DNA of 33,048 nt. It comes from a virus. The notes below the pieces were generated by a model. The model was given only the letters and a program-made list of their open reading frames with translations. It was not told the DNA's origin and did not search any database. Shown one piece after another: positions 2-23,658 of the stretch (the first letter of the stretch is position 1; each line of letters opens with the position of its first letter). The DNA lies in IMG/VR virus record IMGVR_UViG_3300032241_000938, positions 1 through 33,048 of that record; one strand, given 5' to 3'. The position numbers and the translations under genes are program-made.

Positions 2-199
2 CTAGTGGCCAAGGCCAACGACATCATAGAGTGGACTGGTTCAGAGTGGCATGTAGTATTTGACTCCGCTCAGATCTCCGACACCTTAGTGTGGGTGACG
101 AATATATACACAGGAGTTCAGTACTTGTGGAACGGTGTTTCATGGGTCAAGAGCTTTGAAGGTGAATATGCGGCGTCCCAATGGAAAATAGTATTGTAA
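2..199 (+). CDS. C-terminus of probable neck protein (gp14-like), 5' end outside window
   Basis: The reading frame is open from the left edge (the codon at 2-4 is Leu), so the GTG at 5 need not be the start. This is probably the last 65 or so residues of a longer protein. The tail is rich in Trp and Tyr, with a pattern of IIEWTGSEW, then TGVQYLWNG, then SWVKSFEGEY and a final W-hydrophobic end. I associate this style of C-terminus with the gp14 neck protein of T4-like cyanophages, which joins head and tail, but that is recall rather than a search. The stop overlaps the next gene by 19 bp, so the Nudix gene is probably translated by coupling to this late structural gene. Other small T4-like head or tail proteins are possible. 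Confidence 0.5.
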   Translation, partial: LVAKANDIIEWTGSEWHVVFDSAQISDTLVWVTNIYTGVQYLWNGVSWVKSFEGEYAASQWKIVL

Positions 200-630
200 A
201 AGATCAGATAGTTTGTAGCGGAGCATTGTTCTACGCTAAATCTACACGACGGTTTTTACTATTACAAAAAGCTCACGGCAAACACGAAGGTACCTGGGGA
301 CTAGTAGGTGGTACTAATATTACAGGCGAAACTCCGTGGCAAGGACTCCAACGAGAAATTAAAGAAGAAATCGGCGCAGTTCCTAAAATATTAAAAACTA
401 TTCCATTAGAAACATTTGTAAGTAACGACAAAGTTTTTAATTTTCATACTTATTTGTGCGTGATTGATAACGAGTTTGTTCCTTCACTTAGCGATGAACA
501 CTACGGTTGGGCATGGGCAACTATAGATCGTGCTCCTAAACCTTTACATCAGGGCTTGCGTAATAGTTTTAGTAGTAAAACCATACGAACTAAATTACAA
601 ACTGTATTTGATCTAGTTGAGTTAATATAA
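181..630 (+). CDS. Nudix hydrolase
   Basis: A 149-residue single-domain Nudix protein. The Nudix box GX5EX7REUXEEXGU is complete at residues 44-66: G44, E50, R58-E59, E62-E63, G65. The acidic residues bind the divalent metal, and the family hydrolyses nucleoside diphosphates linked to another group. The N-terminal strand (VCSGALFY, then FLLLQK) fits the core fold, and the length is normal. The substrate cannot be read from the sequence; NUDT/MutT-like, ADP-ribose or nucleotide-sugar substrates are all open. The ATG lies inside the end of the preceding gene, and the stop TAA shares its last base with the next ATG (TAATG). This gene therefore links a structural gene to the halogenase in one translationally coupled run. 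Nudix genes are common in T4-like phages, so it may not belong to the halogenase pathway. Confidence 0.9.
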   Translation: MENSIVKDQIVCSGALFYAKSTRRFLLLQKAHGKHEGTWGLVGGTNITGETPWQGLQREIKEEIGAVPKILKTIPLETFVSNDKVFNFHTYLCVIDNEFVPSLSDEHYGWAWATIDRAPKPLHQGLRNSFSSKTIRTKLQTVFDLVELI

Positions 631-2117
631 TGTTAAAAAAATGTCAGACAGTTTGTATTGTTGGTGGTGGTTCAAGCGGTTGGATGGTTGCCGCATATTA
701 TCTTTATCAAATTCCTGATTTAAAAATTATACTTATAGAGAGCCCTACAGTACTTTCTGTTGGAGTCGGCGAAGCTACGATACTCGGATTTGATGAATTC
801 TTAGAAAGTTGTGGAATGAATACCGCCGAGTGGATGGCGGCTACCGATGCCATTTTTAAATGCGGTATCTTATTCCCAGGTTGGCGAGACGAAACTACAC
901 CAGTATGGCATCCGTTTAATCTTACATATACACGTCAAAATATGGGAGATTTGAGTGACATAGAATTGTGGCACAATGTTAGTAACAAGGAACAATACGA
1001 TTATAATACCTACGCCGTAGGAGATTGGGACACTTGTGTATTACATAACAAAGTAACACCTATAAACAAAAGAAAAGCATATCATCTCGATTGTATTAAA
1101 CTAGCTAATTTTTTATCTAACAAATGTAAACCTTATTTAGAATATATCTCTTCCAATGTTAATAATGTACAAGTGTCTGAAGAAGGAATTTCTAAATTAA
1201 TACTAGAAAATGATCAAGAAATTATTGCCGATTTATATATTGATTGTACTGGATTTAAAAAATTATTGAGTAACAGTTTGCCTGAAAGTAACTGGATTAA
1301 CAAAGATAAAATGTTATTCCTTAATTCAGCTGTTGCTACACAAATTAACTATGTAGATCCAAAAACAGAAATGACCCCTTATACCACAGCACAAGCTGTA
1401 GATTTTGGTTGGATTTGGAAGACTCCTATACAAGATAGAATTGGCAGTGGGCTAGTATACGATAGTGATTTATTAACTCCTGAACAAGCAGAAAGCGAAT
1501 TTGTTAAGCATTGGGGCGAAAATCGTCTAGTTCATGGAAGATTTAATCATATAAAATTTAAACCAGAATTTAATACGAATAATTGGCGTAAGAATTGTAT
1601 TAGTGTCGGGTTAGCTAGCGGGTTTATTGAACCATTAGAAAGTACAGGATTACAGTTAATTATAGACGGCATTGTAAATTCTGCTGATGCTATTAAAAAA
1701 GGTTTTTATACAGAATACGACCAAAAATGTTTTAACAGTACATTATCTATAAGATATGATAACGCTACAGATTTCATTGGAATACACTATTTAAATAATC
1801 GGCGAACTGGCAAATTTTGGCGCAAGGTTCAAGAAAATATTCAACCAACCGATACACTATTAGCAACTATTGAACAGTATCAATACAGCAGACAACTTTT
1901 TATACAGCAAAGCAATAAACATCTATTTGGAGCTCATAATAAAAATATTTGGTTCGATGCTGTAGGTATTAAATACTTGGTGCCGCAAGTTCCCGAAGAT
2001 CAAGCCAGACAGCTTTTAGAAGAATCGTATATTAACAGAAATAAATGGGCATATACGTATGCTCCTACTAATTACGAACTTGCTAAAATTAGAAACGATC
2101 AAGGGTATTATGAATAG
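630..2117 (+). CDS. FAD-dependent halogenase, tryptophan halogenase family (copy 1)
   Basis: A 495-residue protein of normal length for flavin halogenases (PF04820 type), which use FADH2, O2 and halide to make hypohalous acid. Visible marks: the dinucleotide-binding GxGxxG at G12-x-G14-x-x-G17; GVGEAT at about 45-50; a lysine K77 in AIFKCGILF at the place of catalytic Lys79 of PrnA; DCTGFK at about 205-210; and PLESTG at 335-340, where E337 matches PrnA Glu346 and the following S/T/G matches the halide-binding turn. The WxWxIP signature reads WIWKTP (261-266), with Thr for Ile. All catalytic positions I can place are present, so it is probably active. No flavin reductase lies in the window, so FADH2 must come from elsewhere. 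Marine viral halogenases are known (VirX1 of a cyanophage, reported to favour iodide). The substrate here is unknown. Its end overlaps the next gene by 8 bp. Confidence 0.88.
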   Translation: MLKKCQTVCIVGGGSSGWMVAAYYLYQIPDLKIILIESPTVLSVGVGEATILGFDEFLESCGMNTAEWMAATDAIFKCGILFPGWRDETTPVWHPFNLTYTRQNMGDLSDIELWHNVSNKEQYDYNTYAVGDWDTCVLHNKVTPINKRKAYHLDCIKLANFLSNKCKPYLEYISSNVNNVQVSEEGISKLILENDQEIIADLYIDCTGFKKLLSNSLPESNWINKDKMLFLNSAVATQINYVDPKTEMTPYTTAQAVDFGWIWKTPIQDRIGSGLVYDSDLLTPEQAESEFVKHWGENRLVHGRFNHIKFKPEFNTNNWRKNCISVGLASGFIEPLESTGLQLIIDGIVNSADAIKKGFYTEYDQKCFNSTLSIRYDNATDFIGIHYLNNRRTGKFWRKVQENIQPTDTLLATIEQYQYSRQLFIQQSNKHLFGAHNKNIWFDAVGIKYLVPQVPEDQARQLLEESYINRNKWAYTYAPTNYELAKIRNDQGYYE

Positions 2118-2703
2118 TAAAGAAAATTTTATAGGTGTATTTGATAATGTTATAACACCATCTCAGTGTCAAGATATTATAAGATATTATGACGAAATGG
2201 ATGCGCTTGATTTAACTATTGATCATAAAAAATACGGCGGTGATGGAAAACCTGGACATAAACGTAAAGACTCGACTGTGTTTATGTTTGAAGAAGATGT
2301 GTTTTATCTTAATCGTACACACCATACTTTAATAAATGTGTTGCCTGCTTTTTGGAAAGCATACGAAGAATATGTAGAAGAATTTAGTATGTTAAAAGCC
2401 TGTTCCAAACATGGTATACGAAGCATACGAGCGCAAAAAACTCCTGTGGGCGGAGGGTTTCACGAGTGGCATTTTGAAACAGATACTCACGATGTTGCTT
2501 CTAGAGTTGTAACCTGGATGTTGTTTTTAAATGATGTCGAAGAAGGTGGTGAAACTGAATTTTTATACTATCCAAAGAGAATTAAAGCAAAAGCTGGTAG
2601 AATGATAATATGGCCAGCTGGGTTTACTCATGCTCATCGAGGAAATCCGCCACTAAGTAATACAAAATATATACTAACTAGTTGGTTAAACTTATTAGAA
2701 TAA
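2110..2703 (+). CDS. 2OG/Fe(II) dioxygenase, prolyl-4-hydroxylase-like
   Basis: A 197-residue protein. A start at 2059 is possible in frame, but ATG 2110 is preferred: it follows AAGGG by 4 nt, overlaps the halogenase by only 8 bp, and the family fold begins right after it (FIGVFDNVITPSQC). The core resembles P4H-type oxygenases: WHFET at 120-124 (H121-x-E123), then MLFLNDVEEGGETEF (137-151), then a distal histidine H176 in HAHRGNPPL and K186 as a likely 2OG anchor. The first metal motif is HxE rather than the usual HxD, a variant that still coordinates iron in some families. Such enzymes hydroxylate proteins or small molecules and are frequent in T4-like marine phages. Its place directly behind a halogenase suggests oxidation of the same substrate, or of a virion protein. 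The stop abuts the convergent gene on the other strand with no gap. Confidence 0.85.
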   Translation: MNSKENFIGVFDNVITPSQCQDIIRYYDEMDALDLTIDHKKYGGDGKPGHKRKDSTVFMFEEDVFYLNRTHHTLINVLPAFWKAYEEYVEEFSMLKACSKHGIRSIRAQKTPVGGGFHEWHFETDTHDVASRVVTWMLFLNDVEEGGETEFLYYPKRIKAKAGRMIIWPAGFTHAHRGNPPLSNTKYILTSWLNLLE

Positions 2704-3288
2704 TTATTTGTAATTTACGCCGATACTGATACGTTCGCTGTCAGTTAAATTTGTATCAACCCTATGAATAAGCCAAGCAGGCCACAATAATAATCGTCCG
2801 ACCTTTGGACTATAGACCATATTTCCGTCTGTTATTCCATCTCCAGGAAATATATTATTGAACATATAAGGGTTGGGATTTTGAAAAATAATATTTCCAT
2901 CAGTTTCAGTTGTAGCATAATAATATACAGCTGATAATTTTACATCCAAATGCTGATGATCGAAATAAAAATACCCTTTATTAAAAAAATTTGTCCAGGA
3001 TCCATCTAATCTTAATATTTTACCAGCATACTGCATGCTATAAGCATACTCGTGTACTTTTTCTGTGATTGATGTTTCAAATATTTTTAAATTATATTTT
3101 TCAATATCGTTAATATGCTCTTCGCCAAACGTAAATGTAGTTTCAACTAATCCGCCTGCAGTAGTTAATTTTTTATTTTTTCTAATTTCAGGCATGGCTT
3201 GATCAAGTTCTTTTTGTATAGCAGTAAGCTGATCTCCTGTAAAATCGTGTACAAATATTGGTGTTGAAAAAAGTAATTGTAAAGGCAT
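2704..3288 (-). CDS. 2OG/Fe(II) oxygenase of the TIGR02466 (2OG-FeII_Oxy_5-like) type
   Basis: A 194-residue protein with the layout of the TIGR02466/PF13759 putative 2OG-Fe(II) oxygenases: an N-terminal FSTPIFVHDF strand, then GSWTNFFNKG (96-105), HQH at 111-113, LSAVYYY, a GNIIFQNPNP strand (131-140), and a C-terminal GRLLLWPAWLIHRV with H175, then ERISIGVN with R186. H111/H113, H175 and R186 are the likely metal and co-substrate residues. The family is well conserved but its substrates are largely unknown. It is the last gene of the minus-strand run, 2 bp after the preceding gene, so it is certainly co-transcribed with it. Paired halogenase and TIGR02466-type genes also occur in some bacterial loci to my recollection, which supports a shared pathway. 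Confidence in the fold is high, in the reaction low. Confidence 0.8.
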   Translation of the reverse strand: MPLQLLFSTPIFVHDFTGDQLTAIQKELDQAMPEIRKNKKLTTAGGLVETTFTFGEEHINDIEKYNLKIFETSITEKVHEYAYSMQYAGKILRLDGSWTNFFNKGYFYFDHQHLDVKLSAVYYYATTETDGNIIFQNPNPYMFNNIFPGDGITDGNMVYSPKVGRLLLWPAWLIHRVDTNLTDSERISIGVNYK

Positions 3289-3290
3289 AA

Positions 3291-3803
3291 TTATTTAAAG
3301 TCTATTACTAGTATATCTCTTGTGCCTATACATGGTCTGCTAGAATGAGATAATGTTCCTGGAAATACTATCCAATCTCCTGGATTTAAAATAATATTCT
3401 TAGCAAAAGATTCTGTTAATGCCACTGCGATAGGTCTTGGATCAAATAGTAGTAAATCTCCGATTCCTAAAATATTTACTATTAATGTATATTTGCTACT
3501 AGAATGTATATGTGGATCTTGAAATCCTCCAGCTTCATAACTAACTACCCAACTACTTTTAATAGGTAAGGAAAGTTCATCTAGAATTTCAGATAGTTGT
3601 AGCATAACATTATCAAGCCACAACGGCATTTTGTCAGAAGGACCAAACACTCTTTGATATCCACAATGGGTTGTAGTCTCGGGCGGTGGCGGTGTTATTA
3701 ATTTTTCAACTTCGATCCATTTTTTATAATCGTTAAAAGTTTTAGAGTCAATTGTTACAGACCCTCTATATATGACTGTAGGAAATAAAACTTCTGTAAT
3801 CAT
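3291..3803 (-). CDS. Small 2OG-oxygenase-fold or cupin-like protein
   Basis: A 170-residue double-stranded beta-helix protein. Visible marks are EVLFPTVIYRG at the start, then QDPHIH with H98 and H100, YTLIVNILG, LLLFDPRP, NPGDWIVFPG (140-149), H153 in SHSSRP, and R156 or R162 near the end (TRDILVIDFK). The HxH...H...R pattern and strand order match 2OG/Fe(II) oxygenases related to the next gene downstream, though shorter. I cannot exclude a non-2OG cupin. The proline-rich stretch TPPPPET (37-43) lies in a loop. Its ATG overlaps the upstream TGA (ATGA), so translation is coupled to the 245-aa gene. It most likely acts in the same tailoring pathway as the neighbouring halogenase. Confidence 0.65.
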   Translation of the reverse strand: MITEVLFPTVIYRGSVTIDSKTFNDYKKWIEVEKLITPPPPETTTHCGYQRVFGPSDKMPLWLDNVMLQLSEILDELSLPIKSSWVVSYEAGGFQDPHIHSSSKYTLIVNILGIGDLLLFDPRPIAVALTESFAKNIILNPGDWIVFPGTLSHSSRPCIGTRDILVIDFK

Positions 3804-4537
3804 CCGAAATGTTTATTATACGCTTCTTTTATTTTATTTCTTTGTACATTGAAAGAAAAATTTATTAAAAATTTACGTTTTTCAATCCATAGCTTGTCCC
3901 AAGCATTTGCATCTCGACACACCATATCATATGCTCTTTCACTTAGTGGAATAACATGCGCCATAGGTGTGCCTGCTTTTATTTTATATTTGCCGTTTAA
4001 TACATACCATCTAAGTTGAAAATTTATTTCAGAACTTATACCTGGATCTAATATTCCTGGTACGTGTTCAAATTCAAAAGTATCACTGTAACTTAAAGGA
4101 AGTACTAAAAATCTAACACCTGGAGGTGCTGTAACATGCCAAGGACTTGATATTTTTATTATAGTTTCCATTGCTCCTGGAGGTGTTGGCAAAAAGGAAG
4201 CGGCCTCTGCATGAGAATTAATGATAGAAACTCCTGGAATATTCATTAACGATGAAATTTCTTCGTCAGGCACAGTCCATTTAAAGTTTTGAGGATCGCC
4301 CCTTGTTTCAATCAACACATCCCATGGCATTGGGACTAAGAATCCTTCCCCTAAAATTTCAAATATACCAGGGCATCTTTGTAAATGTGGAAATCTTTCC
4401 ATGTCTGCTTGTTTAACAGCAACTTTATAGTGTTGTCTACAAACATCTACCCATGCTGGTAATTGTTTTTTAGCCGGTACTACTGGAAAAGTATCAGCAA
4501 TACCAGCTATACTTGAAAAAAACTCAATCTTCTTCAT
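3800..4537 (-). CDS. Unrecognised conserved-type protein, 245 aa, in the halogenase operon
   Basis: I do not recognise this gene with confidence. It is 245 residues, soluble, without a signal peptide or membrane segment. Features seen: MKKIEFFSSIAGIADTFPVV at the start, a KKQLPAWV segment, CPGIFEI, GFLVPMPWDVLIETRG, PPGVRFLVLPLSY, a VPGILDPGISSEINF stretch, and GTPMAHVIPL near residue 200. Alternating hydrophobic strands with many prolines suggest an all-beta fold, and the GTPMAHVIPL turn resembles trimeric dUTPase-like or cupin-like barrels only loosely. It may belong to a domain of unknown function found beside other halogenase or 2OG genes (DUF6065-like comes to mind, unverified). It overlaps the halogenase stop by 14 bp and the downstream oxygenase by 4 bp, so it is made together with them. 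Confidence 0.75.
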   Translation of the reverse strand: MKKIEFFSSIAGIADTFPVVPAKKQLPAWVDVCRQHYKVAVKQADMERFPHLQRCPGIFEILGEGFLVPMPWDVLIETRGDPQNFKWTVPDEEISSLMNIPGVSIINSHAEAASFLPTPPGAMETIIKISSPWHVTAPPGVRFLVLPLSYSDTFEFEHVPGILDPGISSEINFQLRWYVLNGKYKIKAGTPMAHVIPLSERAYDMVCRDANAWDKLWIEKRKFLINFSFNVQRNKIKEAYNKHFG

Positions 4538-6041
4538 CTTTATACCATTCTTTTAAAAATTCATAGTGATTTGGAAACATCTCGTTTACGAGATCAACTC
4601 TGTGACTTTGATTTCTTATAAAATATTCAGCATATTTTTTACCATGATCGGTTAGCGGACTCTTAGCATCTTTATATACACCGGCCGCATGAAGTACGCT
4701 AAACCAATGCCCAACGTGGAATCCACTAAATTTATCAAGGAAAAATCCGTTGTGTGGCTCTGGCACAAATTTGCTAATGATTTCTTTAACAGATTCTGGA
4801 ACATCTTCGAGTGGTTGATTTCTTATAAATTTCCAAAATGGTGTATCATCTTTAGAAGAATAATGATAGTGTGCCCAAACAAAAGCTAAAATTTCAGTTA
4901 CCATATTCATGTAAGACATATTCAAATTTTGTTTAGCAACATCGTTCCAAATGCCTGAATGTTGATTTAATAACCCTGTTAGATGCTCGACAATTTTTGT
5001 AGTAAATGTAATACCAGTTGCTTCTAATGGTTCTACAAATCCGGCACTAAGCCCTACAGCAATCACATTTTTATAAGCAACAACTTCATGACTGCCGCAT
5101 TTCATTGTTAAATGTCTAGCAGGTGTTTTGAATTCTCCAATCTTTTCTCGTAATTCTTTTTCAGCATCTTCAGCTGAAATAAATCGATCGCTATATACAT
5201 ATCCGTTGCCAGTTCTTTTAAATGATGGAATAGTGAACATCCAACCGGCATCCATTGTTGTAGCTTTAGTATAAGGAAAACATTCTGTTTCAGGATCTGT
5301 ATAGTTAGTAGGTATTACTACCGCTCGATTCATTGGAAGAAAATTTTCTATGCTATGAAATTTTACACCTAAATTCTTTTCAATTAATACACTACTAAAT
5401 CCAGTACAATCAATATACAAATCGGCAGAGTGAGTTCGCCCTTGTTCATCTATTAATCCTGTAATTCCGTCTTTGTCCTTTGTTACTTCTATTACCTTAG
5501 TATCAAAATAGCCAATCTTGTCACCTACAATATTTTTTAACGAATCTATAATAGCATAGGCGTCAAAATGAACTGCTCCAAATTCTCTAACTCCAGGTAT
5601 AGCATAATTTGTATCTAATCCTGCTAGCTTTGGACTTTTGTTATTTTTTGCCATTCTATAAGCTGGTAAAAAATCAAAAAATTCATCTACAGGTTTATCG
5701 ATGAAATAATCAGTTGTACGTATTCCTGGGCCTACTAGTGTATTTTCAATAAAATCATTATCTACAAAAAAGTTTTTTTTATTCCAACCAATGAATTCAA
5801 CTCCTAATTTAAAGCTGGCACTGCTTGGTTTCATCCATGTTATTGGATCTATTCCACAATCGTATAAAAATCTTGCGGTAGCTGGTTGTGTGCCTTCGCC
5901 TACTCCGATCGGTCCAATCGCAGTACTTTCTATTAGTGTAATTTTAGCGGGAAATTTTAAATTTTTAATTAAGTAGGCCACAGTTAGCCATCCGCTTGAT
6001 CCACCACCAAATACAATTATTTCTTTAATTTTAGTTATCAT
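4524..6041 (-). CDS. FAD-dependent halogenase, tryptophan halogenase family (copy 2)
   Basis: A 505-residue flavin halogenase. The frame is open to a further start at 6080, but ATG 6041 is preferred: it overlaps the preceding TGA as ATGA, and GxGxxG follows at the same distance as in copy 1. Marks: G12-x-G14-x-x-G17; GVGEGTQ at 46-52; K78 in ASFKLGVEF at the place of catalytic Lys79 of PrnA; DCTGFSSVL at 211-219; PLEATG at 338-343 with E340 matching PrnA Glu346. The WxWxIP motif reads WMFTIP (267-272), with Phe for the second Trp. It shares the fold with copy 1 but differs throughout, so the two are old paralogues or separate acquisitions, not a recent duplication. Different substrates, or successive halogenations of one substrate, are likely. 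It is coupled to the U32-methyltransferase gene upstream and the 245-aa gene downstream. Confidence 0.88.
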   Translation of the reverse strand: MITKIKEIIVFGGGSSGWLTVAYLIKNLKFPAKITLIESTAIGPIGVGEGTQPATARFLYDCGIDPITWMKPSSASFKLGVEFIGWNKKNFFVDNDFIENTLVGPGIRTTDYFIDKPVDEFFDFLPAYRMAKNNKSPKLAGLDTNYAIPGVREFGAVHFDAYAIIDSLKNIVGDKIGYFDTKVIEVTKDKDGITGLIDEQGRTHSADLYIDCTGFSSVLIEKNLGVKFHSIENFLPMNRAVVIPTNYTDPETECFPYTKATTMDAGWMFTIPSFKRTGNGYVYSDRFISAEDAEKELREKIGEFKTPARHLTMKCGSHEVVAYKNVIAVGLSAGFVEPLEATGITFTTKIVEHLTGLLNQHSGIWNDVAKQNLNMSYMNMVTEILAFVWAHYHYSSKDDTPFWKFIRNQPLEDVPESVKEIISKFVPEPHNGFFLDKFSGFHVGHWFSVLHAAGVYKDAKSPLTDHGKKYAEYFIRNQSHRVDLVNEMFPNHYEFLKEWYKDEED

Positions 6042-7714
6042 AATTTTTCCACGATTAATATATACAACCCGTTCCACCACTCAGTTTTGTTTTCTTCACT
6101 ATTTAAGATAATTTTTCTGTATGTTATATGAGCACCCATTTCTGCTAGTGCGTAATTTGCGCCGTCTACTACTCCTTCCCAATTTGCGTCATCGAGAATA
6201 ATAACCGATTCTTTTGATAACACAGGATAATAGTATTGTATTGCTTTAGTCACTGAATCAAAGTCGTGCGGACCATCGTAAAACATCATCTGTATATTGT
6301 CTGTTATATCTTTAAGATCGACTTGAAATAAATCGCTGTCAAATAGAACAACTTTTGATGTTAGAATATAAGGAGTTATATTTTTAACAAAATCGTCTTT
6401 GTTATTTGATGGCAATTCTGGTAAAGCATCGTCTGATGGTTGTATTTGTTGTTTCCAGTTGTCGACAAAATAAGCATTAAGCGGATTATTTTGTAGTACG
6501 GCCGCTGCCGTAGCTCCTAAGAATGATCCTATTTCTAAATAAGATCCAACTCCGGATGCTATAGAATTCAATAGTGTTTGAACACGTATACTAGTTAATC
6601 CTGGAATCTTGTTGTTAATTTTTGGAACTCCAGAGTCTGCTATACAACTAGCCACATGTTTTACTAAATCACTGTAGTCAATATCAACTTTAGCTTCTGC
6701 GATTCTGTCGCAATACTGACATTCCCAACAATCAAACTTGCAATTTTTAATTTTTTCTCGCCATATGCTAATTGGCTTGCCAACAAGATTTGTTTCTTTT
6801 AAAAAGTTTTCAAAATTATCATGTATGTATTCTTCGCCTGCGGCCCAACGATCTACAATTTGCATAGTTTCGGCTAGTCTATCATAGTTTTCTCGACCAT
6901 GCATTTTAAATACATCTATACCTAGATCAAAAAATTCTTCCCAGTCTTCTCTCCAACCTGGTAAATTTGCTGTTTTTAATGTGATAGCGGGATCTTGTAC
7001 TTCCCACTTAGGACAACTAACACGACTAATAGGGTCATTAAAATATTGAGGTTGTTCTGAATCTCTAGTATTATTATACTGAAAGTGTTCAACCATCATT
7101 GGACAAGCACCAAGACATCCTTCGTTAGCTAATAAACTGTATTGTATATCTTTTCCTAGATTTTCTTTGATCCATACTTTAGCTTCTTTTAATCTTAACA
7201 ACGTATCACGATCTCTCATCAGATCTCTGTCTAAATTAATATAATCAAATCCTACTTTTGCTAAATTGACAACTTCTACTGCTGTACGCACATCTCTTAA
7301 AATTGTGTTTTTAACAAACAAATCAGGAAAGGCGGCTTTAATTTGTCCAGTTGCCATCCAGTGTGTATGCGGAATAGTGGCAATTTTTACGCCAGCATCA
7401 TACAATTTTTTAAAATTAAAAATAAAAATGTCTAGATTTTTTTGTGTAGGCGGAACTTCAATGTTATTAAATGTGGCACTGATTGGGATACCAATGTGAT
7501 CTTGAATAATAAACGCATTTTCTATTGCGGCTTGTTGGTCTTCTTCGATAATAATAACTTCGCCCATAGCATCTTGCTTAAATGGAGCAATTCTAGAAGT
7601 AAAATACACATCAGATATCCACTCTTTGTTTCGTTTTAACCATTCTGTAAAAACGTAAAACTGGTTTGAATCTAATTTTGGATTCAGTGGAACACTAAAA
7701 ATTTTTTTATTCAT
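6038..7714 (-). CDS. U32-peptidase-like Fe-S barrel fused to a class I SAM methyltransferase
   Basis: A 558-residue two-domain protein. Residues 1 to about 300 look like a U32 (UbiU/UbiV, RlhA/TrhP-type) barrel: a GVKIATIPHTH strand (108-117), an NEGCLGACPM cluster with C200 and C204, C234 in SCPKW, and GIDVFKMHGRE (265-275), which matches the U32 'lKIhGR' strand. A second cysteine group C325-x3-C329-x2-C332-x2-C335 follows, so at least one Fe-S cluster is likely. Residues about 375-558 form a Methyltransf_24-type Rossmann domain: motif I YLEIGSFLGAT (392-402), VDNW with D418, FYDGPHDFDSV (478-488), and ILDDANW (506-512). U32 relatives act in O-independent hydroxylations and RNA or ubiquinone modification; none is a safe guess here. 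It is the first gene of the cassette on this strand, after a 75-bp gap with a hairpin, and its stop overlaps the halogenase start. Confidence 0.75.
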   Translation of the reverse strand: MNKKIFSVPLNPKLDSNQFYVFTEWLKRNKEWISDVYFTSRIAPFKQDAMGEVIIIEEDQQAAIENAFIIQDHIGIPISATFNNIEVPPTQKNLDIFIFNFKKLYDAGVKIATIPHTHWMATGQIKAAFPDLFVKNTILRDVRTAVEVVNLAKVGFDYINLDRDLMRDRDTLLRLKEAKVWIKENLGKDIQYSLLANEGCLGACPMMVEHFQYNNTRDSEQPQYFNDPISRVSCPKWEVQDPAITLKTANLPGWREDWEEFFDLGIDVFKMHGRENYDRLAETMQIVDRWAAGEEYIHDNFENFLKETNLVGKPISIWREKIKNCKFDCWECQYCDRIAEAKVDIDYSDLVKHVASCIADSGVPKINNKIPGLTSIRVQTLLNSIASGVGSYLEIGSFLGATAAAVLQNNPLNAYFVDNWKQQIQPSDDALPELPSNNKDDFVKNITPYILTSKVVLFDSDLFQVDLKDITDNIQMMFYDGPHDFDSVTKAIQYYYPVLSKESVIILDDANWEGVVDGANYALAEMGAHITYRKIILNSEENKTEWWNGLYILIVEKL

Positions 7715-7718
7715 GAAA

Positions 7719-7766
7719 ACAGACCTTTATAGACAATGTACTGGTACATTACTTATAAAGATCTGT
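7719..7766 (-). promoter_or_regulatory. Long hairpin over the ribosome binding site of the U32-methyltransferase gene
   Basis: Two 23-nt arms (7719-7741 and 7744-7766) pair around a 2-nt centre. Read as minus-strand RNA, 22 of 23 positions pair, three as G-U and one as an A-C mismatch. The same arms read as plus-strand RNA have three mismatches, which suggests that the minus-strand RNA is the selected form. The core GTAC-centred 7+7 part (7735-7750) is perfect on both strands. The hairpin ends only 4 nt before the ATG at 7714, and the only Shine-Dalgarno-like stretch (AAAGG, 9 nt upstream of the ATG) lies inside its 3' arm. It could repress initiation, protect or process the mRNA, or attenuate read-through from the structural genes. 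No U-run follows, so a simple intrinsic terminator is less likely. Confidence 0.6.
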
Positions 7767-7774
7767 GTTAAGGG

Positions 7775-7782
7775 TATTTAAA
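7775..7782 (-). promoter_or_regulatory. Candidate T4-type late promoter
   Basis: On the minus strand this reads TTTAAATA, 7 of 8 matches to the T4 late consensus TATAAATA. It sits inside a 12-bp perfect palindrome (7774-7785) just after the stop of the upstream gene. A start a few bases downstream would place the hairpin at 7719-7766 at the very 5' end of the mRNA. AT-rich sequence gives such matches by chance, so this is tentative. Confidence 0.3.
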
Positions 7783-7789
7783 TACTGAA

Positions 7790-8440
7790 TTATTCTACAC
7801 CAGGAACGCCCATATATCTAGGTTGGCCGCAACGAATTTCCAAACCTGGCTGGCTTAAATCCCAAGCTGGCGATCCTAAATTCTCTTCTACTTTTTGGAG
7901 ATTAGACACTTCGGTACACATGCGGTTGTGCATGAGCCTGTGCGCATCGTCCAAATTAACACAATCGTCTATCTCTAAAGAAATTTTCGCTTTTTTATCA
8001 GCATACTCAGACTGGGTTACTGTATCCAATGCTTTATAATGATTCGATAATTCTAGACGCATTAAAATTTTTAGAAATTCTAAAGCATTAGCCTTATTAT
8101 CGTCAGTTAATTCATATAGTGTTTTTTGGCGTTTGGTTTCGGGATCTGCTCCTGGAATATTTGGATCGTCTAATGAATTGTCTGGAAATAAATCAGGAAC
8201 ACCGCCGTCGCTTACACGAAATTTCATGTAATTTCCATGTTTTCTGAAATCATGACGATTAAATTTAGCGGCAAGAGCAATTGTCTCGGAGATTTCAACA
8301 GCACTAAACGAATCTAAATCTACAAGAGAAACATTTTCTGGAGAAATGTATCCTACAATATAAAATCCATAATTTCCATGACGTTGTACGTTAGCTACTC
8401 TAGGATCTGTGTTAGCTATTGATTCATAGATTATATACAT
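7790..8440 (-). CDS. Unrecognised phage protein, 216 aa
   Basis: I do not recognise this protein. It has 216 residues, no signal peptide or membrane segment, and a mixed composition quite unlike the T/S/G-rich fibres upstream. The first third (YIIYESIANTDPRVANV, then NYGFYIVGYISPENV) looks alpha/beta; a charged helical middle follows (about 100-175). The end (residues 180-216) is rich in G/P and aromatics (GSPAWDLSQPGLEI). It starts 17 bp inside the preceding coiled-coil gene, so the two are coupled and may form a complex. The position at the end of the fibre gene run suggests a structural, assembly or chaperone role. It is the last gene before the hairpin and the auxiliary cassette. Confidence 0.7.
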   Translation of the reverse strand: MYIIYESIANTDPRVANVQRHGNYGFYIVGYISPENVSLVDLDSFSAVEISETIALAAKFNRHDFRKHGNYMKFRVSDGGVPDLFPDNSLDDPNIPGADPETKRQKTLYELTDDNKANALEFLKILMRLELSNHYKALDTVTQSEYADKKAKISLEIDDCVNLDDAHRLMHNRMCTEVSNLQKVEENLGSPAWDLSQPGLEIRCGQPRYMGVPGVE

Positions 8441-9311
8441 TATTTAAATCTTCTCCATTGGGTTGTTCTGCAGTACCTTGAATAGTTTTATTCAAAGTAT
8501 CGATTAGATTTTTACGATCGCTATCTAATAACTTATTGATAGCAGATTCTTTGATTTCGCCAATAAATGCCTTTTCAGGAAGTTCTGTATTTAATCTTCG
8601 AGCAATTTCAGTTCTTAGATAGTCTTGACGAGCGTCATATGTTAAACTAAAATGATTTGCCATGGCAACAATTTCGTTTTGTTGATTTGGTGCTACCATT
8701 AAAATTGCTTCTAGATTTCCTGCTCCAATTCTACCGTACGCACTTAGATCTAAAGCCGCCTGGCGAGCTAGTCTAACTGTCCAATAATGCTTTTCATATG
8801 CCGCTTCTTCTGGAGTACCAAATACAGTCATTAAAGATCTGCCGTCTGGAGTCTTTCCTTCTTCCGAGTCTAATAGCGCATCAATTAGTGCAGCAATTTC
8901 CTGACGTTCTCTATATACATCCGACACACGATTTATTGATCGTTCTATATCTTTACGTTTTTTTGTTGCTTCAATTAGAATTATTTTCTTTTTAAGTTCA
9001 TCAGTTTCAAGTTCAGCATCTCTTAAAAATATTTCTTCTTCTACTTTGAATTTTGAAATATCATATTCAATAGTTTCAATACTATTATCTCGAGATTTTA
9101 ACTCCATTAACCACTGACGCAATTTTCCAAAAGGAGTAAATTGTGCTTCGCCAATAAACCATTGATGTTTAAAACTTGTAGTTCCCCATTCGAGATTTAA
9201 AGCTGTGCTTAACAATTTTTCTTGATTTTCTGTCAATAATGCTGTGTCTGTTCTTACTTCTATGTTATTAGAGTTCGGATGAAATTCAATTAAATTATTA
9301 TCTGTAGTCAT
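8424..9311 (-). CDS. Coiled-coil phage protein, probable structural or assembly factor
   Basis: A 295-residue, highly charged protein. Residues about 62-150 show long helical, heptad-like runs rich in E, K, R, I and L (for example SIETIEYDISKFKVEEEIF and ELKKKIILIEATKKRKDIER), consistent with a coiled coil. A conserved-looking patch follows (GTPEEAAYEKHYWTVRLARQ, about 165-184), then a second helical region to about 280. No enzyme motif is seen. The ATG is preceded by GAAGGA at a good distance. The gene follows the fibre cluster and overlaps the 216-aa gene. Similar charged proteins sit beside fibre genes in T4-like cyanophages as I remember them, so a fibre-assembly chaperone or virion role is plausible but unproven. 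Confidence 0.7.
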   Translation of the reverse strand: MTTDNNLIEFHPNSNNIEVRTDTALLTENQEKLLSTALNLEWGTTSFKHQWFIGEAQFTPFGKLRQWLMELKSRDNSIETIEYDISKFKVEEEIFLRDAELETDELKKKIILIEATKKRKDIERSINRVSDVYRERQEIAALIDALLDSEEGKTPDGRSLMTVFGTPEEAAYEKHYWTVRLARQAALDLSAYGRIGAGNLEAILMVAPNQQNEIVAMANHFSLTYDARQDYLRTEIARRLNTELPEKAFIGEIKESAINKLLDSDRKNLIDTLNKTIQGTAEQPNGEDLNNVYNL

Positions 9312-12025: not shown

Positions 12026-15000
12026 TTAATGCTGAGTAAAGAATGCTAGAGCAACAGGTGCCCCGTCAATTCCGCCTGTAAATAACATTTTACTTGACAC
12101 ATAAATTTGTGCGTTCGATGTATTACTTATCGTATTTCCAGCGATATATATCTGTCCAGATGTTATGGTATTTACGTTCAATGTTGATTGACCGCCACCA
12201 ATCTGGGCTGTAATAAACGCTTTGATAGCTTTTTGGGTTGGTACCACACTGTCGCTATTAGCTGTAAAGTATGGATCTGTACTAAATTGGGTAATTGTAG
12301 CACTTCCAACTCCTAAACTAACTGATCCAAGTGTCAATGATTGTAGTCCAGCTAAGTTAAACGCACTTGCGTTCAATGTAGCAGTACCAGTTGACTGTTG
12401 AACTCCAAACAAGTTACCAACGTTAAAGTTACCGTCTTGGTCAGTTGATGTAAAGAACACACGACCGCCACCTGTACTTAATGTTTGATTAGACTGAACT
12501 GCCTTAGTTGGATCAACGTTTGGATAGTTAGTTGATGTTACTCCGCCTGTACCAATATACAAGAAATCATGTCCTGTCATACGTGTGTTACTGTATAACA
12601 AGTTTGTTGTAATTAGTGTTCCGTTTGGCGGTGCTAATAGTGTGCTTAATCCAGGATTAATTTGGAATGTAGCTGTATAGTTACCAGCAATACCTAATAC
12701 GTTAGTTACCGCAACAAGTTTGTACCATGTATTTGAAATACTTGAGAACACTACGTTACAACCTGCTTTTGGTATTTGATACAATCCGCTTACGTTGATA
12801 AATGTACCTGTTTGATACAAATCAGCATACCCGTCACCAGCATAACTTGAGGTAGCAGTTGTATTTCCAGTACCACGGTTTGTAAATGTAGGATTACCCA
12901 ACGCACCGTTACCGATACGTGCTGTTACCGGAGCATTATTAACGTGGTTTGGATCGGTAATTGTTACAATCGGACTAGCAAAGTATGTCATGCTAGAAAT
13001 TACTGCAGTTGTTGCTATAAATGACGATCCACCGCTTGTTAATGCTACTTGGAATTGTGTAGCTGTAATACTATTAGGAACAATATAATAATACTGTCCA
13101 GTAGTAATACCACCTTGGCTTGTACCATTGAATACAACTGGTTGGTTTGCTACCAAATTAGTTGTACTGTCAACTGTAATTAAACTCAATGCGCCTACAG
13201 TACCAACAATACTTACACTACTACTTGTACCAACTGTAAACACTGAACCATTTAATGTTGTGCTAATCTGTACACTTGTACTTGCCGCTGTTGTAGCATA
13301 TACATAATATGTTGTACCACCAACTACGTTACCAAAACTTGACGCAAATACGATTGGTTGTCCTTGTACTAGTGTTGCGGCACTAGCTAATGTAATTGTT
13401 GTAGTTGAGCTTGAATTTACAGTTACACTAGTACTAGCATAATATGTTGTTGCTGTCACGTTTCCGCGTGGGAATCCGCTACCTGGTTCAATCATACGAA
13501 CTTCAGATACCGCATTTGACACAACTTTAACACGACCTTGTGGCGTTGATCCAGTTGCTAAGGTAGCCGCTGTTGTTCCGCTTGTAGCTGACACACTTAC
13601 CCATGTTGGAACTGCGCCTAGTGTAGCATTTTGTGGATTACCAAATGCTAGGCCTGTCCAGTTACTTGAACTTGGCATTCCAGTTGCGTAGAATGTCCAG
13701 TTTACACCGTCCCAGCTAGTTGCTACAGCTTGTGAACTTGTTGCGATTGCTACAAATAAACCTTCTCCATAACGGATGTTACTCCATGTTGTTATACCAC
13801 TAGCATTTAATGGATTGTTTTTAATTGATACCCATGTGTTGTTAGTTACGTTTGGACTTGTTCCCCAAGCACTAGTTTGCCAGTTGTAAGTATAGTATAC
13901 TGTACCGTCACTAGCTAATGCTACGAAACGTCCATTACCATATGCTAAACCTGTCCAAGTTTTGTTTGGCAATGTTCCGCCTGTTGACCATGTTGTTGGA
14001 TCTGACTTCATCCAAGCAGTCACAGTTCCACCGATTGCGCAGAAAACACCACCACCGTAAGCAACTGCTTTATAACCACTTGAGTTAGCAATAATATTGC
14101 TTGATTGATTTGTCCAAGCACTGCTTGGAGCACCAGTAGCACTTGCCGCTGCCGCACTACCACTTCCTCCTACAGCAATAAACAAGTTATTGCCGTATGC
14201 TAATGATGTCATAGTACTTGTTGGCAACACATTTGTATTAGCTGTCCAAGCACTTCCCAGTGTTGTGGGTAAGTTATAAGCATTTGCTGTGCTTGCGCTT
14301 GATATTGCTAAGAATCCAGCATTTGGATCTGTGATAGTAATAGTCGGCGCTGTAGCATAGCCATAACCCGACTGTGTAATTGTAAAGCTACTTACACCAG
14401 TATTTGTTAAGTTAGCTGTAGCCACTGCTAGTGTACCAACATAAGTTAAAGTTACACCGTATGTAGCACTTGCTCCAATGCCAGTTGCTCCGTAACCTGA
14501 TTTACCATAAACACTATTTGTAAATGTTGGAGCAGTTGAACTAAATGTTCCTGTTGCGCCAGCTTGATAGTAGTTACGAACGTTTGGTGAAACGCTAGTA
14601 TCGATATAGTAGTAATAGTTGTTAGCAGTTGCTGAACCGCTAGCAGTCCACGCTGTAGCCGTAAATGGCGCACTTATTGTAACAGTAGGTGCTCCAAAAT
14701 AGTTAAAGCCCCATGTGTTAGCAGTAATGCTTGACAATTCGTTTGTTACAACTGTAACAGTTGGGCTAGTATATCCGCTACCAGTAATTGTCATAGTAAC
14801 TGATTGGATTGTTCCATTTAATACCTGACAAATTGCTGTTGCTCCAGTACCTGTACTGTCTGTAATCACAATAGTTGGAGGAGTTGTGTAGTTGTATCCG
14901 CCATTAGTTACTGTAATGCTTACTACTTGACCAGCTGTATTACCTGTACCCAATACTGGTGTAAGAACTGCTCCTGAACCGCCAACGCCGCCAACAACTG

Positions 15001-18000
15001 CTGTTGCTGTAGCGCCTTGACCGCCACCATATACTACGTTACTCCATGTTGTAGAGCTTGGCATTACACCGCCTACGTTCCATGTTTTACCATCAGTACT
15101 ATAAGATGTTGCTGTTGCGCCAGTTGATGTAGCTACAAAGTTGCCTGCGCCGTATGTTATTCCAGCCCATGTATTTCCAGCACCACTTAGTGTACGTGCT
15201 GTACTTGAAAGTCCTGGACTTGTGTAAGCGATTGCTGGTTCAATAATGTAAGTTGAAGTAGCATCTAATACTGGTTGAATTGTGTATCCTGGAATAACAT
15301 GATCCCAACCTGCTTCATATAACAGAACACTAACTGTACCAGTTAATGTTGCGCTAGCCATATTTTGACTTACGCTAACTGTCCAGCTTGTACCACTACC
15401 TGCTGTGATATAGGTATTAGCGGCCACAGTTCCTCCGCTTAACAACATACCAATATAAATGGTATTTGTAATAGCGCCACCAATTGTTAGTGTATTTCCA
15501 ACAATAGTTGAACCTGCCATTGTGGCCGGTGTTGAACTAGTCGCAGTCAAAGTATAACTGTTTGTACCTGCGGTTGCGTGAGCCGCTGTATCAGCTACTT
15601 GGAATGCGGTACTAGTAAGACTTGATGAGCTTACATAATAAACTGTTGATGCTGATAATCCAGCAACCGGTGTATACAAGTAAATTGGTTGTCCAGCGTA
15701 TAATGTGGCTGTACTTGCTACAGTAAATGCGCTTGTTGTGCTTGCTGTGATAGTTAAACTAGCAAAACTTGGACGAACAATGTTAGCAAGTTTTGAAGCA
15801 CTACTATATCCAATAATGTTTGCGTACTGACCTACACCTGTACCAGCTGTAATTTGAACACGCATACCAAGATATGCTGAACTCAAATTAGTATCTGAGT
15901 TGGCAATTGTAATAGAACCAACTGCGCCAACTTGAGCTACGTTGCTGATTGTTAAGTAGTTACTACCACCAACACCTTGTCCATTGTTTAAGTCAACTAA
16001 ACGTGTTTCAAATACTGCTGAATCACGGAATTCGTCTTGTGTTGTAGCAATATTATAACCAGCACCACTAATTGTTGGAATAGCATTAGTATATGATGAA
16101 CCTGCGTTTTCATATTCTAAACGCCATACGTAGTTGGTAGCATCTGTAATTACGTTAGTAACGTATGCCGAATTATAGCGATTGTTTAATGTAGCGTAGA
16201 TTGGAGCTTCGTATGAATCAATGCCTTCGGCAATAACACCATACGTACCATATGAGCTGTTACCGTTAGTAGCACGAATACGTCCGCCTAGCTCTGACAA
16301 GTAACCTGCGTAACCATAGTAACAGAATACGCTAACTGCTTCAGTAATAGCGCCTGAACCAGTACAATAAACACCAATTCCATCACTTAGTACTTGTGTA
16401 AAGTCGTTTGACACCATGGATTTATATCCACCGTTGTGTAAAGAAGCATCAATCTTCATACCTATACAACCATTACCAAAGTTAGTAATATTTTGTGTAT
16501 ATGGTGAACGATAGTTAATCCATACACTCGAGTCGTTAGGACCAAATCCTTGGTCAAATGCTATGTAAGAACCGGCTGTTGGGCGGCGTGTACCATAAGT
16601 ATTTGGCAATGCCAAGCTACCTAACAACCCGTTACAAGTCATATTGCGTACACCAGTACCGCTTTGTAAACGGAACAAGTCATTAGTTGTTGATCCGGTA
16701 ATGATTGACAAGTGTGAACTTACAGCACGAAGAGTTTTGTAGTTACCTGTCTTGGCCAAGTCATAAACAAGTCCATCAAAGAAATATCCGGTATCACGTA
16801 CACACTTAGTTGTATTGGTATAGTAAGCTACATTCATAGAACCAGTTCCACCGACTAATGTTACTGTAGTCTGTGTTCCAGTTCCTGCTTGTACTGTACT
16901 TACTGTAAATGTAGTTGTTGTTGGAGTTGTCAATACCCAGTATGGAGTATTAGCAGAAATATTGGCATCAAAGATTGTGCCAGTTAAACCAAACTGTACT
17001 GGATCGCCAACTGTTAAGTTGTGAGCAGAACTTGTAGTAAATGTACCATTAGTTGCTGTTGTTGTTACAGTGCCACCATATGTACTCAGTATGTATGCTA
17101 CAATTTCATTAGACAAAAATGTCTTATTAGCACGAATAATTTCAGCACCTTGTATTGTAGTTAATGTATTATTATAACCAGTAGCACTGTAGTTAGAAAC
17201 AATACCATAACCTGGAGCAACTGTACCATTAATAATCTTAGCTGGAGAACCTTGTGTTAGTTGTAATCCAGCTGTAGCGGTTGCTGTTAACCCTGTAACT
17301 GTATTAGTAATTACATGAGCAGTACCACTCTTATATGTACTTGTTACAGTAATTGTTGTACCAGCATTTGGATATGTACCAGCAGTCACTGAGTTAATCC
17401 AATAAATGTCACCATTCCAAATACCGCCAGATTGATTTACTGTTGCTGTTAGCTGAGCATTTAATCCAAATGTAGCACCTGTGATAGTTCCGCCGCTAGC
17501 TGTGGTTGTAATCGCTACACTAGAACCCAATGTACCTGTTAAGGTAAATGTAGTTGTACCGTTAGTTGCCAATATATAGAATGTTTGCGCATTTACAGAA
17601 GAACTACCATTGATTGTACCAGCAGATAGTGTGCCGTTAATTGTAACAGCTTGACCCACCACTAATGTAGTACTTGAACAACTAAATTGTCCAGCGGTTC
17701 CTGTGATAGCAACTGTACTCAATGTTGGGCTAGTTTGTAAACTAACAGCTGATCCACCAAAAGTCGTAGCTAGCTGAATAGTACTTCCGCTTGGATTAAT
17801 TACATAGTAATTTTGATAATTTATTATTCCACCTAAGTTTGTTCCGCTGAACCAAATCTTCTGACCTGCTACAATACCTAAACTTGCGGCAGTTGCTGCA
17901 AGTGTAAGTGTATTAGTTGTTGAACCAATTGTAGCTAGTACAGATGTTGTTACTGGAGCGGGCAATCCTGTGAATACGATTGGCATATTAACATACATAC

Positions 18001-21000
18001 CAGCATTGCTGTTTACTGTAATCAAGTTTGTGCCAGTTGTGACTGCTGTTACAGGAATCGCTGTACTTGAAGCAGTGATAGTTGTTGTTGTTCCTAAACC
18101 ACTGTAGATACCATAAACAACTGCTGTCATTGCACCAATAGAACCTACTGTAGTAGTAATTCCGCTAATAGTACCTGTAGACGTTGTTGTAATAATTGCG
18201 CTACCACCGGAGGTTGCTGACAATGTAAACGATGTTGAGCCGTTAGTAGCAATAATGTAGTAAGTAGTTGGTGTAGAATATCCTACAATACTACCTGTTG
18301 AGAATGTTCCACTAAATGTAACTGGTTGTCCTACAACTAATGTAGAACTTACTGCGTTACATGTGAATGTACCGTTCGCACTAGTAATTTGAACTCCGCT
18401 TAATGTATTAGTTGGAGTAATAGCAAATACAGAACCACCATAAGTAGAACTAACAGTTAACTGAGTTGCGCTCAATACTTGTTTAATGTAATAAACTCCG
18501 GATGCTAAATTACCAATAGAAGTTCCGCTAAGAGTGATTTGTAATCCCGGAACCATGCCAACAGTTGTACCTAATGTCAAATAGTTTGTAGTAGGTATTC
18601 CATTAATAACTGCCGTAGTTGTTGAACTTACTGATTGACTATAATTAGTTAACCAGCTGATTGGACTAGCTGTAATAGTAATTCCAGTAATAGGACTTCC
18701 TGAGCTACCACCTGCTACGCTAGTAACATTTGATCCGTTTTGTGTTGCTGACAACTGGAATGCTGTAGTTGTTGGAGTGCCAATAACATAATAAACTGTT
18801 CCAGATGCGTATCCGCTAATACTACCTGCTGAGAATGTTCCGCTGATAGTAACTGTTTGTCCTACAACTAATGGAGTACTTAATGGAGTGGCAAGTGTAA
18901 ACACACCGGTTATACCACCAAGGTAAGCACCGGTAATTGAAATAGTTGGTCCAGATACTAGTGTAGTACCTGTATTAATACCAATACCACTTATAGTCAT
19001 ACCTGCTGTGATTATGCCGCTAGAAATACTGTTAACAGTAATCTGTGTTCCAATAATTGTACCGTTAAATACAGCATTGTTAGTTGGTTGCCCTTGCAGT
19101 GTTGCTACCATCTCATCTATAACGATTGATGTTTGTGCTACAGCACCATTAGCCGCTAGTAGCTTACAACGCTCTCCAATAAATCCAATAGAATTAAATG
19201 TGCTATCAGCTAGTGTTTGTTGTAGCGCCGCTACTAAAGGTATTAGTCTTTGATATGAACGACCAGTAATGATACTATAGAAATTACTAGCAAACAATGT
19301 ATCGTAACTTAAAGCAGTAACAACATAGCCTGCGTCACGAGTAGTTAAAGTTAAACTTGGACTTTCTGTTTGATAGAATTTCTTCACAAATGCGGTAGCA
19401 TCTGCAGCAATTTCAGTTGCGCGAGATTGAATAGCATTGAATGATGCTTGGTTAGCTGGGGTAGCGAATGCGATTGCTCCAGATGCTTGAGGAGTAATTG
19501 TAAATGTTCCAGTTATTGGTAACTGTGCACCTGAGCTTCCGTATGTTTGACTTATACTAACAGTCCAGCTTGTACCGCTACCTGCTGTAATATAAGTGCC
19601 CGGAGCAATACCCACAGTAACAGTCATTTGACCAGTTGCTGTTGATAACGTTGGACTTGTGGTTGTACCATAGTTGTATAGTGTAACTGTGCTACCTGAC
19701 ACAACGTTAACAGTATATGTTGTTTGTGTTAACCCACCAAAAGCAAACTGATTTCCATAAGTGTACGGAGTACTAAATGTAATGGCCATTCCAGCTACAA
19801 TTCCAGTAGTACTTGCTAGTGTTACAACGTTAGTGCTGACAGTTGTTGCTGTAGCAGTTGTTGTTAACGCAGTACTTGTTACTAGTTGGCCAATTGCCAA
19901 TCCAGTACCGCTTGTTACTGTTAATGTTGTTCCGCTAATATATCCAGTTGTAGTTCCAGTTGTAGTATTAGCAAAACCACCGTTGTTCAAGAAATAAATT
20001 ACATCAGCTACACGAGCTTGTGCAAATTTAGCTGAAGCTTGTGAACCAGATGAACCAGTTGTTACTTGTGCGGTTGAGTTTCCAGAACTTACTAAACTTG
20101 CTGAAGACGCAGTACCGTTGTCTGTTGGATCTAACACATAAGGAAGAATAGCAGACAAGCGATTCAATGCTGCCAATACACCTGTTGTATAAGGTGCTAC
20201 AATCAATGGAGTATTCAAACTATAGAATGAATTACCAACAATTAATGATTGATTATTACAACCATATGTTAAGTCATATTGTAACGCATCTAACACGCTA
20301 CTTAAATCACGAATAGTTTCTGCTTGGTATGTTGGACCGTATTGTGCCCAAGTTGTACCAGTTAGTGTGTTGTTTAGATAATTAGCAATTTCATCTTTAA
20401 TAAATTGATAGTTTTGTACCAATTGCGCAACAGCATTTCCGTAACCTACTAGATAGTATGTATTGTATGCTGTTACAGTAGGCATATTAAATGCTGGCTG
20501 ATGTATTAAGCCTTGGTTAGCACCATAACCTACTGAGTTACTTGGTCCAGTAATTACTGAGCCACCAGACATGATATCTTGGATAATCTTAGTATTAGTT
20601 ACAACAAGATTGGCTGCAGTAGCATTACCTGTATCACCAGCAGGTAAACTTGTTATCTGCGTTTGTGTATTTGGGAAAGGTCCAGTTGAAGTAGCAGTGA
20701 TACTACTGTTACTAATTAAATTACTTAACTGACTTTGAATTCTTTGTAAAGCTACCGCTGTTTTAGGAGCGTCATTTACTAGGTATGGTTTAGCTGGGGC
20801 TGCCTGAACAATGGTACTACGTAACTCATCACCAACAAGAGCTGTATCTTGACTTAGAACAATTGGACCATACTCGTTGTATGTTCCTGTTTTTAAGAAG
20901 ATAGTTGTACGTGGGCGTTGTAATGTTGGAACATTTGCGTATGTTCCTGCGCTTAATGCGCTTACTACAATAGCTAATAAGTTTTGAGCATTTACCAACG

Positions 21001-23605: not shown

Positions 23606-23625
23606 TTTATATCATCCTCTGATAG

Positions 23626-23633
23626 TATTTATC
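23626..23633 (-). promoter_or_regulatory. Candidate T4-type late promoter of the giant fibre gene
   Basis: On the minus strand this reads GATAAATA, 7 of 8 matches to the T4 late consensus TATAAATA, 20 nt before the ATG at 23605. It lies in the 53-bp gap between the two giant genes, the longest gap in the fibre cluster. A start a few bases downstream would leave a short leader containing AGAGG (23616-23620). Position and match fit a late promoter, but no second element can be used to test it. Confidence 0.4.
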
Positions 23634-23658
23634 TTTACTGTAATTCTTTCTTTTTAGT

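Follow-up and report, generated by a model that had tools for sequence, protein, structure and literature searches.

A recurring gene set of flavin halogenases, a dUTPase-fold partner and oxygenases beside the fibre genes of T4-like phages, with a putative role in late tailoring

Two flavin-dependent halogenases, a dUTPase-fold protein and three oxygenase-type proteins are encoded next to the fibre genes of an uncultured T4-like phage. Since these genes co-occur in nearly fixed order in related phages, a shared multi-step function is likely. We tentatively favour a late multi-enzyme tailoring system whose bulky aromatic substrate would most likely be a fibre or another virion protein, and for which we infer the chemistry, the docking and the substrate.

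Gene layout of the window

The window, that is the whole stretch of DNA analysed, is a 33,048-base virus record and represents a fragment, the right two thirds of which consist of two giant fibre genes. All eight open reading frames described in an earlier note on this DNA were found again at the same positions. These enzyme-like genes sit between a gp15-type gene at the left edge and the giant fibre genes. The window encodes the following features:

2..199, + strand: C-terminus of a gp15-like tail sheath stabiliser, truncated at the contig end; homologues in about 30 loci
181..630, + strand: Nudix hydrolase (PF00293, E 4.8e-15)
630..2117, + strand: HalA, flavin-dependent halogenase (PF04820, E 6.6e-90)
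2059..2703, + strand: Ox1, 2OG-Fe(II) oxygenase (PF13640, E 4.7e-11; phrog_61, 3e-52)
2704..3288, - strand: Ox2, TIGR02466 / 2OG-FeII_Oxy_5 protein (TIGR02466, 72 bits against a cut-off of 62.5)
3291..3803, - strand: Ox3, divergent oxygenase-fold protein (phrog_81, 6e-10; PF13759, weak)
3800..4537, - strand: P7084 (phrog_7084, 1.5e-35), halogenase partner, not named in the title of the earlier note
4524..6080, - strand: HalB, flavin-dependent halogenase (PF04820, E 1.4e-90)
6038..7714, - strand: U32MT, predicted U32-type TIM barrel plus catechol-type O-methyltransferase (phrog_1458 over the full length, 4.5e-165)
7790..8440, - strand: G9, conserved unknown before U32MT, in 79 of 98 U32MT loci
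8424..9311, - strand: G10 (phrog_1409), conserved unknown before U32MT, in 91 of 98 U32MT loci and in 121 cultured phage records
9345..12003, - strand: G11, G12 and G13, fibre-associated (phrog_1417, tail-fibre phrog_11338; synteny)
12026..32202, - strand: two giant fibre proteins of 3859 and 2847 aa, the second a tail fibre (phrog_9851, E 1e-121)

The gene at the left edge had been taken for a neck gene but encodes the C-terminal end of a tail sheath stabiliser of the gp15 type. Its full-length relative (L018:19178-20683) matches T4-gp15_tss with an E value of 1.4e-24 as well as phrog_11196/227. In this relative the match to the gp15 family is confined to residues 1-240 of 501, the remainder being a long C-terminal extension.

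The description of eight coupled genes holds for the overlaps, but the genes are arranged in two blocks that converge at 2703/2704, which excludes a single operon. On the + strand, Nudix-HalA-Ox1 follow gp15; on the - strand, U32MT-HalB-P7084-Ox3-Ox2 follow the fibre genes. The overlaps, TAATG at Nudix/HalA and ATGA at U32MT/HalB, suggest translational coupling, the latter using ATG 6041, the likely start of HalB, which overlaps the U32MT stop. The likely true start of Ox1 is an internal ATG at 2110. Relatives of the Nudix gene form the gp15-side end of the cassette in many loci.

A late-promoter-like motif, WTAAATA, was found upstream of G12 in 21 of 34 cases and upstream of G13 in 19 of 25, compared with about 5% of random 130-bp windows. 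Upstream of U32MT it occurs in 5 of 89 and it is likewise not enriched upstream of the halogenases or P7084, a distribution that fits read-through into the cassette from the fibre side. A late promoter of the cassette's own was considered as well, and a conserved motif was not found. No structured RNA or tRNA was found in the window. A defence system was discarded, as PADLOC returned generic matches only (a 2OG domain, and PDC-S07 for the Nudix protein).

The giant fibre proteins begin with repeated W...Y..GD.V.y.G..Y.C modules that, by eye, have a carbohydrate-binding, CBM5/12-like look. A virion protein encoded in the neighbouring position of another contig (L009:13148-14941) has a weak CBM_5_12 match.

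Predicted activities of the encoded proteins

HalA and HalB both match PHROG 2928 and score 302.6 and 304.8 bits with PF04820, against a cut-off of 21; their identity to each other is only 29%. The nearest solved structures are Thal (phmmer 8.7e-63) and VirX1 (8.6e-62) for HalA, which has one close relative (66%, L010), and PyrH (6.6e-68) for HalB, with VirX1 at 4e-52. The flavin motif GxGxxG reads GGGSSG in both. The WxWxIP motif carries one substitution in each protein, WIWKTP in HalA and WMFTIP in HalB, and viral homologues share the form seen in HalB. In agreement with the earlier note, both proteins retain the catalytic Lys (PyrH K75) and Glu (PyrH E354), and an alignment of 57 viral halogenases has the Lys in 57 and the Glu in 56. 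Given that both catalytic residues are kept, HalA and HalB are probably active.

The Tyr-Tyr, Glu and Asn positions, which we take to hold the amino and carboxyl groups of free tryptophan in PrnA and RebH, are replaced in HalA, HalB and nearly all of the 57 viral sequences, with the C-terminal alignment being less certain. Because of these replacements the two enzymes probably do not act on free tryptophan, a substrate that we considered and regard as disfavoured. HalA and HalB thus have the family profile, the flavin motif and the catalytic Lys and Glu in common with PyrH, Thal and PrnA, but appear to have lost the free-tryptophan contacts. The earlier conjecture of chlorotryptophan as the product of phage PrnA (PMC9964418, PMC2984593) is weakened by the same replacements, and the published chlorotryptophan/antibiotic reading fits poorly.

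VirX1 (PDB 6QGM) belongs to the same family and is about a third identical to HalA and HalB. According to an excerpt of a review, it is a trimer from cyanophage Syn10 with an open site that accepts bulky substrates (PMC8407142); the gene neighbours of VirX1 are not discussed in that excerpt. The Syn10 halogenase beside P7084 has 530 aa compared to the 531 residues of VirX1, a match by length alone.

Ox1 scores above the Pfam cut-off for 2OG-FeII_Oxy_3 (PF13640) and Ox2 above those of PF13759 (2OG-FeII_Oxy_5) and TIGR02466, its relatives with solved structure being 2rg4 and 3bvc. Ox3 remains below every Pfam/TIGR02466 cut-off and matches 2OG-FeII_Oxy_5-type models weakly. The metal-ligand motifs reported earlier for the oxygenases are invariant in all three, but only Ox1 displays the canonical HxD/E...H arrangement (H138-x-E140...H193, conserved), whereas Ox2 and Ox3 have H-x-H...H plus an Arg (H111, H113, H175 and R186 in 70 homologues of Ox2; H98, H100, H153 and R162 in 14 of Ox3). 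As these residues are conserved, all three are likely metal-dependent oxygenases, with a putative 2OG dependence of Ox2 and Ox3.

The AF2 model of P7084 (pLDDT 93) adopts a dUTPase fold (Z 10.5, rmsd 3.0 over 115 residues). PF00692 (dUTPase) is matched weakly by 3 of 29 homologues, with a best E value of 0.001, and by eye only parts of dUTPase motifs III and IV (GILDP...; AGTPMA) can be recognised in the alignment.

The U32-methyltransferase fusion proposed in the earlier note is borne out by a predicted U32 fold and a methyltransferase, though no Pfam U32 match was obtained for U32MT. In the model (pLDDT 84.5), residues 1-280 match the U32 protein Mk0906 (5d88; Z 16.2, 220 residues, rmsd 3.0) and residues 363-557 match O-methyltransferase folds with Z up to 17; the C-terminal part also matches PF13578. 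Since the methyltransferase domain dominates the list, 5d88 is the sole barrel among the best 50 structure matches (VIA-align). U32MT relatives are present in 123 cultured cyanophage records. A single-sequence search revealed no bacterial homologues, and a profile search yielded three MAG contigs, of which at least one is phage-like by its G9-G11 neighbours. A Syntrophaceae MAG (L124:7589-8689) encodes a lone U32-type domain, with genes for sulfate activation, a sulfotransferase and a GLUG-repeat protein in the vicinity.

Occurrence of the cassette in uncultured and cultured phages

The search for co-occurrence that the earlier note had proposed gave a strong result: synteny of the set extends over dozens of contigs from uncultured T4-like phages (IMG/VR), with the near-constant order fibre-G13-G12-G11-G10-G9-U32MT-[Ox]-Hal-Ox-P7084-...-Nudix. 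In a set of 98 loci centred on U32MT, with a few contigs counted twice, a halogenase is present in 54, while 44 have U32MT and G10 without a halogenase; these two genes also occur in more than 120 cultured genomes. Pairing was counted in 77 U32MT loci, after removal of four contig-repeating loci and with at least 6 kb required downstream. Halogenase and P7084 are both present in 46 of these, halogenase only in 1, P7084 only in 6 and neither in 24; the corresponding numbers for halogenase and oxygenase are 47, 0, 8 and 22. The p-values are tiny but overstated, as the loci are phylogenetically related. Among cultured phages P7084 occurs in 14 records, each with a halogenase adjoining or near, and certain uncultured loci contain P7084 and an oxygenase without a halogenase. 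The link between P7084 and the halogenases is strong but not absolute.

A profile scan detected at least 585 halogenase relatives; back-translated patterns of the single HalA and HalB sequences were too specific and gave zero matches. Among the best 80 of these at least 585 loci, a cassette-type oxygenase is found in 65, P7084 in 25 and U32MT in 15, with up to four halogenases per locus. Four loci (L153, L155, L190 and L204) combine three or four halogenases with several oxygenases around P7084 genes. Halogenase loci without U32MT but with long flanks have a fibre-like large open reading frame within 10 kb in 11 of 13 cases, an uncalibrated count. The content of the cassette differs between loci. 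In some relatives a DUF401-type membrane protein (phrog_14035) is encoded in the gap between cassette and gp15, where L012 has an outer-membrane beta-barrel protein, uncommon in lytic phages (L012:18946-20593 and L018:16912-17949).

The terminases of related contigs indicate two or more T4-like lineages, one close to phage C48C1 and pelagiphage Mosig and another close to PA5oct. For the terminases L116 and L114, from contigs G001 and G008 with the same cassette, the nearest relatives are PA5oct-like phages (56%) and phage C48C1 (67%). The presence of the same cassette in different T4-like lineages would suggest cassette transfer or great age. A cyanophage origin was judged by psbA and not adopted; a psbA-type gene was looked for in ten of the larger related contigs and not found.

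The earlier statement that no such phage system had been described needs qualification, since the core exists in cultured Kyanoviridae, although it had previously been annotated gene by gene only. Cyanophage auxiliary genes including halogenases and 2OG oxygenases have been itemised singly (PMC3037559, PMC2984593, PMC9964418). In syn9, Syn10, S-RIM44, P-TIM40 and S-CREM1, one or more halogenases, P7084 and several 2OG oxygenases directly follow the fibre genes, in S-CREM1 after a gene annotated as collagen-like. The arrangement of the window corresponds to two halves in cultured phages, Hal-P7084-oxygenases (syn9 group) and G11-G9-G10-U32MT (Syn33/S-RIM12). Similar to the window, syn9 and Syn10 have fibre genes, two tandem halogenases, P7084 and an Ox2-/Ox3-/Ox1-type series in overlapping genes. 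They differ by having more oxygenases, by using a single strand and by lacking U32MT and G9-G11 in the compared stretch, and their halogenases are about a third identical to those of the window. Syn33 and S-RIM12 share the fibre-G11-G9-G10-U32MT block, with U32MT about 42% identical, but have no halogenase or P7084 in the compared region and only one downstream oxygenase. The halogenase of HTVC008M adjoins terminase genes, and that of S-SSM7 is surrounded by carbamoyltransferase and heptose/sugar genes.

Public cyanophage genomes already contain the components and much of the arrangement. What appears to be new is the recurring unit with its dUTPase-fold partner, the predicted fold of the fusion and the joining of the two halves in T4-like phages in which psbA was not detected, as well as the apparent loss of free-tryptophan-binding residues in viral halogenases.

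Candidate substrates and alternative functions

In the mechanism we propose, reduced FAD, oxygen and halide would drive HalA and HalB, with a flavin reductase probably supplied by the host, and the two enzymes would halogenate the aromatic groups of a bulky substrate accommodated in an open site. The oxygenases would hydroxylate the same substrate or a neighbouring one, and U32MT probably hydroxylates and O-methylates. P7084, with its dUTPase fold, may be a non-catalytic and probably trimeric partner through which the halogenase docks onto its substrate. Late phage proteins would be the most likely substrates, and among them the tail fibres or adhesins of the neighbouring genes would come first; the giant fibre proteins, which are T/G-rich with 1.3-1.6% W and 5.4-5.8% Y, are candidates.

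The fibre-adjacent position, the missing amino-acid-binding residues and the open site of VirX1 (PMC8407142) favour a large substrate made late, such as a fibre. So does the fact that the cassette is without a late-promoter-like motif of its own while G12 and G13 have one. The multi-step late tailoring suggested by the earlier note agrees with the nearly fixed order, the intact-looking sites and the fibre-linked, probably late position, but as to the substrate it is still inferential. On the other hand, large fibre genes are common in this genome region, so that their closeness to the cassette may be a coincidence. U32MT does not have to work together with the halogenases, given its persistence in so many loci without one and in so many cultured genomes. 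The halogenase near the terminase in HTVC008M counts against fibre tailoring, as does the general abundance of 2OG oxygenases in these phages, with 24 in one genome (PMC9602691). The more specific reading, that phages halogenate, hydroxylate and methylate their own fibres, with a dUTPase-fold trimer docking a trimeric halogenase onto aromatic residues as the native role of VirX1-type enzymes, is possible but doubtful.

The cassette could instead convert a host aromatic into a halogenated, hydroxylated and methylated metabolite, such as a signal or an antibiotic. The halogenases have bacterial relatives that work in such pathways, antibiotic protection has been guessed for PrnA-like genes (PMC2984593, PMC9964418) and, by structure comparison, the methyltransferase half of U32MT resembles the natural-product O-methyltransferases TomG, SafC and MycF. 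We nevertheless regard this as unlikely, given the replaced free-tryptophan-binding residues and the constant position in the fibre region. Furthermore, Pfam analysis of the ten proteins at 181-9311 of the window, itself a fragment, revealed no scaffold-forming, transport or resistance gene.

Nucleotides, tRNA or DNA as targets of P7084, the Nudix protein, the oxygenases and U32MT appear improbable. The dUTPase fold of P7084 and the U32 fold of U32MT point in this direction, and U32MT could unite in a single protein the roles of YrrN/YrrO, the U32 proteins of B. subtilis, and of TrmR, with which they work (PMC6599085), in making mo5U34 in tRNA. YrrM/TrmR is the best PDB match of the methyltransferase profile, albeit marginal (E 0.016). 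Like TrhP1/TrhP2 and TrmR, U32MT would combine a U32-type with a TrmR-like O-methyltransferase fold, but as a single fused protein with another cysteine pattern and in a fibre rather than a tRNA context, and we treat the parallel as a lead, not a classification. The residues essential in TrhP are E162/C170/C177 (PMC6599085); U32MT has E198, C200 and C204 plus a Cx3Cx2Cx2C block and does not keep the E/C/C spacing of TrhP/RlhA. Comparison of its profile with three E. coli U32 proteins gave a probability of 11%, most dUTPase motifs are unrecognisable by eye in P7084 and the window contains no detected tRNA.

A late change of the host envelope or its glycans, for example as a superinfection block or release aid, is in our view quite improbable. 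It would suit the sugar-gene neighbours of the S-SSM7 halogenase, the barrel and DUF401 proteins in the gp15-side gap of certain related loci and the sulfotransferase and GLUG-repeat protein near the MAG relative of the U32-type half, yet the window cassette has no export or glycosyltransferase domain by Pfam. Least probable is that unrelated accessory genes accumulated at a hyperplastic insertion site between the fibres and gp13-gp15: the structural modules of cyanomyoviruses do contain such regions (PMC2984593) and cassette content varies, but the order is fixed, the genes have start/stop overlaps and the halogenase-P7084 pairing holds across distant lineages.

In the literature examined we found no report on the native substrate of viral flavin halogenases. 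VirX1 is a prized biocatalyst, and the unit of halogenases, dUTPase-fold partner and oxygenases near the fibres guides the choice of proteins for co-expression and the search for products, making the question of the natural substrate testable. If phages do modify their own fibres in this manner, the cassette would be a viral protein-halogenation system, and halogenated fibres would add a new layer to the chemistry of phage-host recognition.
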